Source of the DNA: Jeotgalibacillus aurantiacus
Lineage (GTDB): Bacteria > Bacillota > Bacilli > Bacillales > Jeotgalibacillaceae
DNA length: 64,000 nucleotides
Assembly: GCF_020595125.1 (NCBI RefSeq)
Contig: NZ_JACNMS010000002.1
Span: forward strand, 806,001 to 870,000
Direction: 5' to 3'
Shown here: positions 3,184-63,198 of the stretch, piece after piece
How the letters are laid out: every line of letters begins with the position of its first letter
How positions within the stretch are numbered: position 1 is the stretch's first letter
Translations under genes and position numbers: made by a program
Notes under the pieces: model-generated
Seen by the model: only the letters and a program-made list of their open reading frames with translations
Told to the model about the DNA's origin: nothing
Databases searched by the model: none

Positions 3184-3303
3184 TTATTTAACCACTCTTT
3201 ATCTTGATTCAACCACTCTTTTCACTTATTTGACCACACTTTACCTTGATTCAACCACTCTTTTCACTTATTTGACCACTCCAAGAGATTATTAAACAAC
3301 TTT
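3184..3303. repeat. 21-bp tandem array 1 (six units)
   Basis: Six degenerate units carry the core ACCACTC (variants ACCACAC and ACAACTT) starting at 3191, 3212, 3233, 3254, 3275 and 3296, that is every 21 bp exactly. Each core is preceded by ATTTAA, ATTCAA or ATTTGA. Read on the minus strand this is GAGTGGTTRAATAA, the same core as the array at 23955-24060. It lies between the convergent yitU and yitT genes. I do not recognise a described function. Confidence 0.85.
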
Positions 3304-3394: not shown

Positions 3395-3503
3395 GGCGGC
3401 ATTCACCCGCAGACTCCTGTGGCGGAAAGGGACAGGTGAAACCATTGTGCGAAGCACAAGGGGTTCACCGCCCGGCCACGGAAAGCGGAGGGTGAATGCC
3501 GCC
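3395..3503 (+). repeat. hairpin repeat, type A, copy 1
   Basis: About 110 nt bounded by perfect 14-bp arms GGCGGCATTCACCC / GGGTGAATGCCGCC. The core begins GCAGACTCCTGTGGCGG and ends GGCCACGGAAAGCGGA. Core and arms can fold into one branched hairpin. There is no open reading frame of interest and no transposase. Confidence 0.8.
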
Positions 3504-3548: not shown

Positions 3549-3665
3549 GGGCCGGTCTCATCCGGAGACTCCTGCGGCAGAGAAGCGACAGGTGAGACAG
3601 CGTAGCGCAGAGCGCTAGCTGGTTCACCGCCCGGCCACGGAAAGCGGAGGGTGAATGCCGACCGG
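3549..3665 (+). repeat. hairpin repeat, type A, copy 2 (hybrid arms)
   Basis: The core matches the family (GACTCCTGCGGCAGAGAAG and onward) but the arms do not pair: the left is GGGCCGGTCTCATCC, the right GGGTGAATGCCGACC. The last 40 nt before the arm tip are identical to copy 1, so this copy seems to have taken its right half from its neighbour. It ends 13 bp before the stop of the yitT-like gene, so it could serve as that gene's 3' structure. Confidence 0.8.
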
Positions 3666-7102: not shown

Positions 7103-7219
7103 GGTCCGGGTCGCATCCGAAGACTCCTGCGGCAGTGAAGCGACAGGTGAGACAGCGTAGTGCGGAGCACTAGCTGGCTCACCGCGCGGCCGCGGAAAGC
7201 GTAGGATGCGACCCGGACC
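7103..7219 (+). repeat. hairpin repeat, type A, copy 3
   Basis: A complete element with perfect 16-bp arms GGTCCGGGTCGCATCC / GGATGCGACCCGGACC and the standard core, followed by GGTTTTA. It lies between the convergent cdr and LacI-type genes, ending 5 bp from the regulator's stop codon. Confidence 0.85.
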
Positions 7220-19068: not shown

Positions 19069-19157
19069 GCTGTTTTGGATTAACATTTCATCAGTTTTAT
19101 AAACAATGTGAAAGGTATCCAAATGATCCCGGACCGGCTCATTTTAGAAGCCCAAAT

Positions 19158-23661: not shown

Positions 23662-23903
23662 GGGTCTCAGACACCCTACGCTTTCATTTGTCCAGCTCCA
23701 GCGACTAGCCCCTCGAGGTCATAAGTCAAAGCTGAACGAGGGCGAAGATCAGCCCTCTTTTCATCTTCGCCTTATGCTTGTCGGGGCTGAACGAGTCGCC
23801 TCCGCTTTTCTAAGGCCGGGCGGTGAGCCAGCTAATGCTGCGCATTACGCTGTCTCACCTGTCGCTTCTCTGCCGCAGGAGTCTTCGGATGTCTCAGCCC
23901 CTC
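23662..23903 (-). repeat. composite hairpin repeat: type A with nested module B
   Basis: Read on the minus strand, a type A element with arms GGGGCTGAGACATCC and GGGTGTCTGAGACCC (12 of 15 pair) contains a second hairpin, module B, inserted in its GAAAGCG-AGG tail. Module B spans about 23695-23800 and has its own arms GCGAC / GTCGC. The same B module, with different arms, occurs at 62995-63095. Confidence 0.75.
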
Positions 23904-23954: not shown

Positions 23955-24060
23955 ACAGTGTTGTTAAATAAAGCCACAGAGTGGTTAAATAATCGAAAAG
24001 AGTGGTTAAATACTGCGAAAGAGTGGTTAAATAACCACAAAAAGTGGTCAAATAAATGCG
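23955..24060 (+). repeat. 21-bp tandem array 2 (five units)
   Basis: Cores GTTAAATA or GTCAAATA start at 23963, 23984, 24005, 24026 and 24047, exactly 21 bp apart, most preceded by GAGTG. It lies 3' of the yisK-like gene. The array is open in two frames, giving seven-residue repeats such as KEWLNNH, but without a ribosome binding site. Confidence 0.88.
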
Positions 24061-24093
24061 TGCGTACCCTCTCAGGTATACTTATCATTACCA

Positions 24094-45230: not shown

Positions 45231-45340
45231 GGGGTGGGACCATCCTTCGCTCGTGGCCGGGCGGTGAACCCATCTGCGCTTCGCACAGCCGGTTTCACCT
45301 GTCCCTTTCCGCCACAGGAGTCTACGGATGGTCCCACCCC
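45231..45340 (-). repeat. hairpin repeat, type A, copy 5
   Basis: A complete element in minus orientation with perfect 15-bp arms GGGGTGGGACCATCC / GGATGGTCCCACCCC. It lies between convergent genes. The remaining 140 bp up to the next gene (45341-45481) show nothing recognisable. Confidence 0.85.
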
Positions 45341-49687: not shown

Positions 49688-49802
49688 GGACAGGATTCCC
49701 CCGAAGACTCCTACGGCAGAGAAGCGACAGGTGAGACAGCGTATTGCGAAGCAATAGCTGGCTCACCGCGCGGCCGTGGAAAGCGAAGGGGGAATCCTGT
49801 CC
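49688..49802 (+). repeat. hairpin repeat, type A, copy 7
   Basis: A complete element with perfect 15-bp arms GGACAGGATTCCCCC / GGGGGAATCCTGTCC followed by GATTTTT. It ends 9 bp before the hemY stop codon, between convergent genes. The preceding 160 bp (49527-49687) show only a small stem TCTTTCTA / TAGAAAGA. Confidence 0.85.
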
Positions 49803-56111: not shown

Positions 56112-56159
56112 ATGTTACGTGTACAAACCATTCGGGGTATTTGAAAACTTGTTGTCATT

Positions 56160-56262
56160 ATTAAACAACTTTTTTAGTTTATTTAGCAACTCTTAATGAG
56201 TATTTAACAACTCTCTTCGCTTATTAGACAACTCTCCACGGTTATTTAACAACCGTCTGTTA
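56160..56262. repeat. 21-bp tandem array 3 (five units)
   Basis: Cores ACAACT (variants GCAACT, ACAACC) start at 56165, 56186, 56207, 56228 and 56249, all 21 bp apart and preceded by ATTTA or ATTA. On the minus strand the unit reads GAGTTGTTAAATAA, one base from the GAGTGGTTAAATAA of array 2. It lies between the convergent yhaA and ecsB genes. Confidence 0.85.
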
Positions 56263-60398: not shown

Positions 60399-60448
60399 TC
60401 TTTTTTAGCACAATTAACATAATGAAGATGGTTTAATATTCATTAGTG

Positions 60449-60708
60449 CCGGGGACATCCGCAGACTCCTGCGGCAGAGAAGCGACAGGTGAGACAACGC
60501 AGCGCGAAGCGCAAGTTGGCTCACCGCGCGGCCTTGGAAAAGCGGAGGCGGGCGTTTAGGGACGTACAAACTGGACTGGCTTCGACGAAGATAAAGGAAA
60601 CACGGAGAGCGTCAGCGAGCCGATGTTGACTTATCGAACGAGAGGACGGGAAGTTTGCTAGTCCCTGCCCGCCGCAGCTAGACAAAGGAAAGCGGAGGAT
60701 GTCCCCGG
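60449..60708 (+). repeat. composite hairpin repeat: type A with nested module D
   Basis: Outer arms CCGGGGACATCC / GGATGTCCCCGG are perfect. After the normal core (to GGCCTTGGAAAAGCGGAGG) comes a second hairpin of about 125 nt, module D, with its own arms GCGGGC (60548-60553) / GCCCGC (60667-60672), followed by a linker CAGCTAGACAAAGGAAAGCG. It fills most of the 660-bp gap between yhaH and scoC. Confidence 0.8.
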
Positions 60709-62544: not shown

Positions 62545-62665
62545 ACAATAGCGTCCAAATTTGTGCGTAAAGTGACCAAGTTCAGGCGGAATGTGACCAA
62601 GTTCAGGCGGAATGTGACCAAGTTCGAGAAGAATGTGGCCAAGTACCAGCTGAAAGTGACCAAAT
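62545..62665. repeat. 21-bp tandem array 4 (six units)
   Basis: Cores GTGACCAA (variants GCGTCCAA, GTGGCCAA) begin at 62551, 62572, 62593, 62614, 62635 and 62656, always 21 bp apart. Two neighbouring units are identical (GTGACCAAGTTCAGGCGGAA). The spacer sequence differs from arrays 1-3, but the core RACCAM and the period agree. Confidence 0.88.
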
Positions 62666-62666
62666 G

Positions 62667-63105
62667 ATCGCCTACGCTTTTCTTTTTGGCTAGCTGCGGC
62701 TCGCAGCGGCTAGTGCGCTTCCCTCAGCTCTGTCCGATAAGTCAACATCGGTTCACTTCGTTCACCGTGTTTCCTTTATCTCCGGCGCTTCAGTCCAGCG
62801 CATACGCCGCTGAACGCTCGCCTGCGCTTTTCTTTGTCCAGCTCCACCAGGCAGGGACTAGCAAACTTCCCGTCCTCTCGTTCGATAAGTCAACATCGGT
62901 TCACTTCGTTCACCGTGTTTCCTTTATCTTCGTCGAGGACAGTCCAGTTTGTACGTCCCTATACGCCTGGTTACGCCTTTCTTTGGCTAGCTCCGGCACC
63001 TAGCCCCTCGAGGTCATAAGTCAAAGCTGAAAGAGGGCAAAAGGCAGCCCTCTTTTCATCTTCGCCTTATGCTTGTCGGGGCTGAGCAAGGTGCCTACGC
63101 TTTTC
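62667..63105 (-). repeat. chain of three hairpin modules (D, D, B)
   Basis: Three structured units in the same orientation are joined by linkers of the type CGCTTTTCTTTGTCCAGCTC. Their outer arms differ but pair: CAGCGGC / GCCGCTG (62704-62812), ACCAGGC / GCCTGGT (62846-62971) and GGCACC / GGTGCC (62995-63095). Both D units contain GATAAGTCAACATCGG, as does the nested D at 60449-60708. No type A core is present here. Confidence 0.8.
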
Positions 63106-63198
63106 TTAGAACCACGCGCTGCCGATGATGATAAGAAGTATGAAGAGGACGACGACTAGGGCGAAGCCTCCGTAGTAGTTACCGTGTTTATGTGACAT
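63106..63198 (-). CDS. YjcZ family sporulation-type miniprotein, copy 1
   Basis: A 30-aa protein, MSHKHGNYYG then GFALVVVLFILLIIIGSAWF: one hydrophobic helix with the family ending. AAGGGGG lies 8 nt before the ATG. YjcZ/SscA-type proteins are small, made in sporulation and associated with the coat in B. subtilis; the role is inferred. It lies 26 bp after its paralogue on the same strand. Confidence 0.8.
   Translation of the reverse strand: MSHKHGNYYGGFALVVVLFILLIIIGSAWF

Follow-up and report, generated by a model that had tools for sequence, protein, structure and literature searches.

A 64,000-nucleotide stretch of the Jeotgalibacillus aurantiacus genome (contig NZ_JACNMS010000002.1, positions 806,001–870,000; called the window and numbered below from its first letter) carries a chain of three hairpin modules, D′, D and B. 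The modules probably belong to a family of short, non-autonomous, BOX/BIME-like mosaic hairpin repeats of Bacillales. They share a head and a tail, their stems covary across many copies and species, they occur in varying number and order, they form composites with a third hairpin repeat, A, and their arrangement turns over between related genomes.

Structure and covariation of the modules

The chain lies at positions 62688–63108 of the + strand, its modules standing head to tail as a preliminary description had claimed, and all the arms quoted there were found in place. Every module starts with the head GTCYAGCTNC (or GGCTAGCT) and ends with the T-rich tail CGCTTTTCT or a close variant, with one long irregular hairpin between them; the total length is about 120 nt for B and 145 nt for D. 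Module D′ (62688–62835, +) is composed of the head GGCTAGCT, the arms CAGCGGC (62704) and GCCGCTG (62806), the core GATAAGTCAACATC...GTGTTTCCTTTATC and the tail CGCTTTTCT. It was recognized by its fold and by the covariance model R1, built from 46 D copies, with a score of 153.8 bits. Module D (62836–62984, +), with arms ACCAGGC (62846) and GCCTGGT (62965), scored 145.7 bits; both copies are themselves part of the model alignment. Module B (62985–63108, +), with arms GGCACC (62995) and GGTGCC (63090), was matched by this D-only model from 62985 to 63103 (41.6 bits, E-value 4.7e-7). Just before the chain, GATCGCCTACGCTTTTCTTTTT (62666–62687, +) is what remains of an upstream module since lost, namely its tail, the same as in complete modules; at the equivalent place the closest relative, G004, has a longer D′ tail remnant. 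At the other end, the tail of module B, CTTTTCTTA, includes the TTA that is, by translation, the stop codon of a minus-strand gene (63106–63198) encoding a 30-aa peptide, presumably of the YjcZ family. The chain is thus the 3′ flank of this gene.

Five different but self-complementary arm pairs were announced in the window, and five are present: the three of the chain, GCGACT/AGTCGC in the B module at 23690–23808, and GCGGGC/GCCCGC in the D module at 60539–60683. The D interior strands GATAAGTCAACATCGG and CCGTGTTTCCTTTATC, described as constant, are identical in the three window copies of D, but the loop between them differs at 60548. The view that B and D are variants of one element is borne out by R1, which finds both window B modules (E-values 9.2e-8 and 4.7e-7); judged by this model, B and D are one superfamily.

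When five copies were folded as RNA, on both strands, none of 200 dinucleotide shuffles was as good (z-scores from -3.2 to -8.0; module D at 62836–62984 gave -7.3 on the + strand and -8.0 on the - strand). With DNA folding parameters, the chain modules D and B were strong and D′ was weak (z-scores -1.4 and -1.2, about one shuffle in ten being as good).

Covariation was measured on D. The 220 pattern matches were reduced to 159 distinct D elements, then to 49 representatives differing by more than 15%, of which 46 were aligned. RNAalifold proposed 35 pairs, 22 of them with double compensatory changes; addition of the head–tail stem brought the structure to 38 tested pairs and 1733 cells. In these cells 94.5% were paired, compared to 81.5% in shuffles and to 29.8–45.9% when the partners were slid by one to three columns. 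Double-changed cells numbered 250 (73 in shuffles), and 23 of the 38 pairs showed a double change (17.2 in shuffles). Among 144 model matches, which were fitted to the model and hence are biased towards it, all five measures exceeded all 500 shuffles, the further pair types reaching 98 against 71.4. G-U pairs were rare outside one core pair, which is a constant G-U. Because the search pattern prescribed the core GATAAGTCAACATC/GTGTTTCCTTTATC, the invariance of this core cannot count as evidence, and head and tail were picked by a regular expression; the covariation sits outside both filters, in helices 2–5 and the top of helix 7. In B, the 3-bp head–tail stem changes in step (AGC/GCT, AGT/ACT, GGT/ACC), and subtypes have their arms and inner stem swapped while the GTC and GTCG frames are kept. 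The covariation first suspected from five window copies, insufficient by themselves, is therefore very strong across many copies and species.

Distribution and turnover

A DNA search of the J. aurantiacus genome found at least 49 D-type and at least 44 B-type matches, partial ones counted, scattered over the contigs. Only 3 of the 159 D elements collected across species lie within a long open reading frame (ORF); the copies are mostly intergenic and numerous, as in repeats of the BOX/BIME kind. By the same kind of search D was present in 11 of 41 genomes including J. aurantiacus, namely seven of twelve of the genus and four of other families. The D core pattern returned at least 118 stretches over named genomes, the 80 listed ones including stretches from Siminovitchia, Virgibacillus, Oceanobacillus, Neobacillus, Niallia, Pontibacillus, Halobacillus, Lederbergia, Bhargavaea and Jeotgalibacillus. 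The search of Bacillales with a covariance model that had been proposed as a check was made with R1: at an E-value of 1e-5 or lower, 88 of 150 sampled genomes of the order had a match. Among 151 genomes drawn from the class, 12 were positive, and the four positives outside the order were all of one family. Since R1 also finds B, the weaker matches across the order are probably B-type. Two plasmid queries retrieved one and two records with partial matches only, and a single phage query gave no module match.

The turnover of modules was followed at the locus of the yjcZ-like gene, between genes identified in this analysis as hpr and prsA, in twelve genomes of the genus. Modules were present in seven, in five arrangements, and five had no module match. 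J. aurantiacus and G004 have D′-D-B, G008 and G007 have B-D, G009 has D-B, G011 has D, and G006 has one D plus remnants. The CTTTTC-TTA junction with the stop codon recurs in the other six chain-bearing congeners. G011 and G008 share the same terminator with a head right after it, and the difference between them is one whole B module; the stretches L270–L275 of these two genomes were not included. The five arrangements, the chains and the composites with A show hairpin modules that are separable and vary in number and order, a trait of BOX- and BIME-like repeats. Other combinations were met at single loci: a B-like module stands in the middle of a D module at L091 (1382–1500), and the D modules of L184, L201 and L205 have an extra GC-rich hairpin-like stretch in their 3′ half.

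Repeat A and the proposed join sites

Beyond what the preliminary description had noticed, modules D and B were also found within the hairpin repeat A. One composite (60448–60708, +; outer arms CCGGGGACATCC/GGATGTCCCCGG) contains the D module of 60539–60683, which lies on the - strand and scores 142.1 bits with R1. The other (23662–23901, -) contains the B module of 23690–23808, on the + strand (44.5 bits, E-value 9.2e-8). In both, the module occupies the same point of A, between CGCTTTC and GGCC. Flanks were read for 59 copies of the J. aurantiacus genome (29 D and 30 B; one contig-end locus was excluded): a script found A on both sides of 14 D and 15 B, and in four more B the left side, missed by the script, was read by eye as A.

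Window synteny with G004 gives the corresponding states of these sites. G004 has a nearly identical A without D in place of the first composite, and an A without B in place of the second, where the site is not otherwise identical and the left flank differs. It also has an A+D+B composite where J. aurantiacus has a short stretch at 19114. The A of G004 that lacks D reads GGCC-GC-GGAAAGCG. Simple recombination of the flanking GGAAAGCGGAGG copies would leave GGCC-TT, unlike this residue, which favours a gain of D in the J. aurantiacus line over a loss in G004; the A+B state would likewise be a product of insertion. No clear target-site duplication was seen at the junctions compared between the two genomes. 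Some 145 extra bases of G004 at window position ~39852 are unlike a D or B module.

The stand-alone copies of A have outer arms that are perfect within a copy and different between copies. Perfect arms of 16, 15 and 14 bp border the + strand copies at 7103–7219 (internally deleted in G004), 49688–49802 and 3395–3503 (missing from G004), respectively, and arms of 15 bp border the - strand copy at 45231–45340. The copy at 3549–3663 (+) has a right arm like its neighbour's; its arms are unmatched here and matched in G004. Where J. aurantiacus has the 110-bp A at 45231–45340, this copy is missing from G004, which has only a fused palindrome, GGGGTGGTCCCACCCC, possibly an excision scar between short repeats of the palindrome. 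A stretch resembling the right arm in G004 where A is missing (3395–3503 and 45231–45340) had suggested that the arms of A are copied from the target site; this was set aside because, by eye, the arms share a loose consensus and the G004 states resemble deletions. Arrays of 21-bp tandem units (GTGACCAAGTTCAGGCGGAAT; AGAGTGGTTAAATAA...; TTATTTAACCACTC...) were also observed at 62555–62659, 23957–24061, 3184–3303 and 56137–56256. Some directly adjoin hairpin repeats, and the array at 62555–62659 is absent from G004.

A common feature of these sites is what precedes the head. A C...TTT tail lies no more than 26 nt before it in 58 of the 59 copies, the exception being L040, where the head is preceded by an A flank with a degenerate T-run. 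Some heads directly follow terminator T-tracts (for example L078, L129, L202, L318 and L324). A terminator scan flagged 21 of 223 copies, which reading by eye divided into 9 true terminators and 12 module tails. In many species a leader separates the T-tract from the head. At 11 of the 20 loci of G144 (L296–L315) and at L096, L099, L123 and L124, the leader is conserved and about 55 nt long, AGGAAATTATAAAATT...TGTGTATAACT...GCCAC. At L096 and L124 it has TGTGGATAACT, which we take to be a DnaA-box-like word, in place of TGTGTATAACT, and loci with this leader mostly end in TTTTGTTC. A second leader type, GATAAGAAAGTATAAAATTTT, occurs together with the tail CTTTTCTTAT, and the start of this leader is complementary to that tail.

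We propose that a new module joins immediately 3′ of a hairpin that ends in a T-rich tail. Such sites would be offered by the tails of other modules, by CGCTTTCC within A and sometimes by the T-tract of a terminator. As each module ends in such a join site, chains would grow head to tail. Modules are also lost, truncated and exchanged, and the putative machinery would be supplied in trans. Selection would act on the folded shape and a few fixed bases of loop and core, leaving the stems to drift freely provided that both arms change. The modules resemble mobile or mosaic repeats more than they do dedicated RNA genes, and by analogy with BOX and BIME their effects on nearby genes (3′ untranslated region (UTR) folding, termination) are probably side effects.

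Folding strand, rival explanations and relation to known repeats

The strand that folds is more likely the complement of the one written here. In the outer pairs of the 87 best D copies, the written strand showed 1949 Watson-Crick, 60 A-C, 9 G-T and 70 other cells, an A-C on this strand being a G-U on the complement. After thinning to 52 sequences the asymmetry was 29 A-C versus 5 G-T (P 2e-5). The unpaired bases of D on the written strand are 39% C and 32% T; loops that are about 71% pyrimidine imply purine-rich loops on the complement. The complement had the lower minimum free energy in all 159 D and in 49 of the 51 B, shuffles being lower as well, and it had the lower z-score in 43 of the 49 D and in 11 of the 17 B compared. 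Single-stranded DNA would give a similar A-C/G-T asymmetry.

Several observations weigh against a mobile, fold-selected family. The search for a mobiliser, in which Y1 and RVT_1 were examined and other transposase families were not tested, found none, and the near absence from plasmids (two queries) and phages (one query) makes frequent horizontal transfer less likely. Nowhere was a module seen to have entered an unmarked empty site with duplication of the target, and the module-free A states of G004 could be losses. Adjacency to terminators is only about twice the background (9 of 223 copies by reading, against 25 of 1338 control positions); insertion behind terminators was therefore rejected as a universal rule and kept as a partial one. 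In the 46-copy alignment the 47 further pair types are no excess over shuffles (44.7), 108 of 500 of which reach that value. The strand asymmetry is not significant when D is thinned to 20 sequences (6 versus 2, P 0.14) and does not exist in B (9 A-C versus 10 G-T), and the energy difference between strands is partly due to base composition.

The modules could instead serve the host as cis-acting RNA, the hairpins of the complement acting behind stop codons as 3′-UTR stabilisers or terminators. Neighbouring genes were defined mechanically as ORFs of at least 100 aa, which gave an ORF on both sides of 137 of the 159 D elements, among which chain members and J. aurantiacus copies are not independent; 62 and 36 pairs were codirectional, 28 convergent and 11 divergent. 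Where the gene beyond the tail points at the element (64 of 137), its stop codon lies at a median of 24.5 nt; for the 73 of 137 genes pointing away the figure is 227 nt. This proximity, the very stable fold and the presence of some module 3′ of yjcZ in seven of twelve congeners speak for a host function. Yet in those 73 cases the gene does not read into the complement strand, five of the twelve congeners do without a module at yjcZ, the type and number vary freely in the others, and the J. aurantiacus copies are dispersed over contigs. A simple consensus scan called no sense-strand terminator in the chain, and this role was rejected for it. We consider a host function of this kind improbable. 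It is also unlikely that the covariation is a mutational effect of the DNA, template switching in quasi-palindromes copying one arm onto the other with no selection on the fold. The excess of double changes (250 cells) over one-sided standard changes (11 cells), together with the scarcity of G-U outside the one constant pair, is unlike stepwise RNA evolution, and the A copy at 3549–3663 seems to have exchanged an arm with its neighbour. Copying alone, however, would erase the internal loops, bulges and fixed single-stranded bases that are kept over long evolutionary distances.

Mobilisation by known enzymes fits the distribution poorly. Repeats of the REP type, mobilised by a RAYT (Y1 transposase, PF01797), would also be palindromic, intergenic and arranged in mosaic arrays, and Y1 is encoded in 34 of the 41 genomes, including 10 of the 11 with D. 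But G007 has D copies and no Y1 match, and no module was found beside the Y1 gene in 31 fetched loci, a subset of the Y1 matches (best E-value 0.53). Of the two Y1 genes of J. aurantiacus, one lies between different palindromes, GGGGACGGAGC, and the other has none visible within 1.5 kb. The REP/RAYT trait of a GT(A/G)G head beside a palindrome of 20–40 nt is absent from the modules, which have the head GTCYAGCT and 120–145 nt. As neither presence nor neighbourhood supports it, RAYT mobilisation appears very improbable. At L064 (C1:173670–177008), a RAYT-like gene is flanked by GGGGACGGAGC palindromes, which with it apparently constitute a separate REP system of this genome. Even less credible is a structured RNA resembling a short interspersed nuclear element (SINE), which a reverse transcriptase would copy into T-rich sites: the complement, probably the folded strand, has its 3′ end next to A-rich DNA at the T-rich junctions, but RVT_1 is absent from 6 of the 11 D-bearing genomes (G004, G006, G008, G009, G027 and G030) and systematic 5′ truncation was not demonstrated. 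This absence leaves mobilisation by a reverse transcriptase (group II intron or other retroelement) unsupported as a general rule. A highly speculative idea is that the strand with purine-rich loops is a mobile RNA known by its fold and copied 3′ of hairpin and T-tract sites into self-growing chains, a bacterial counterpart of SINEs. If this were true, each insertion would recreate its target, at module tails, in A and at terminators.

Returning to mosaic hairpin repeats of the BOX/BIME kind, the D, B and A repeats would be alike in kind to those families and not members of them by homology. The comparisons below follow the portions of the cited sources that were available. For BOX of Streptococcus, organised as boxA-boxB(n)-boxC, the reports concern S. 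pneumoniae, S. mitis and S. suis and, in very rare cases, another streptococcus (PMC3049150). It resembles D/B as an intergenic mosaic of hairpin modules with variable inner number, nested insertion and an RNA-like fold (PMC3049150), but has other hosts and presumably another sequence; D/B was matched in 88 of the 150 sampled genomes of the order, and in its modules the stems change freely between a constant head and a constant tail. BIME/REP are likewise palindromic intergenic units in mosaics, with pairing preserved through complementary changes (PMC2817692). REP units measure 20–40 nt (PMC3733652), unlike the 120–145 nt of the modules, in which the GT(A/G)G head and the RAYT association of that system were not found. 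The bcr1 and other repeats of the Bacillus cereus group are, by description, similarly short, intergenic and endowed with mobile-element traits. Bhal-1 of Bacillus halodurans (74 nt, 36 copies; PMC2267715) is another intergenic stem-loop repeat, likened to D/B by description only. As regards miniature inverted-repeat transposable elements, which have constant terminal inverted repeats shared with an insertion sequence, the arms of the modules are inverted and differ between copies. No Rfam 15 family was matched at the gathering score in the window, and the modules at four further loci gave nothing at E-values up to 5. The available parts of two structured-RNA surveys (PMC8632094, PMC2864571) contain no description of the D/B family, nor does the open-access literature, and an earlier report may exist in subscription papers. 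To this extent the suggestion of an undescribed element system holds.

The annotation gap is large, as an abundant, strongly covarying element with model matches in over half of the genomes sampled from the order is matched by no Rfam family here. Its near-perfect Watson-Crick covariation with little G-U makes the cause testable, whether RNA selection, template copying or an intermediate of single-stranded DNA. With its self-renewing join site the family offers a concrete model for the growth of mosaic repeats, and repeats located behind many genes could affect terminator maps and assembly.
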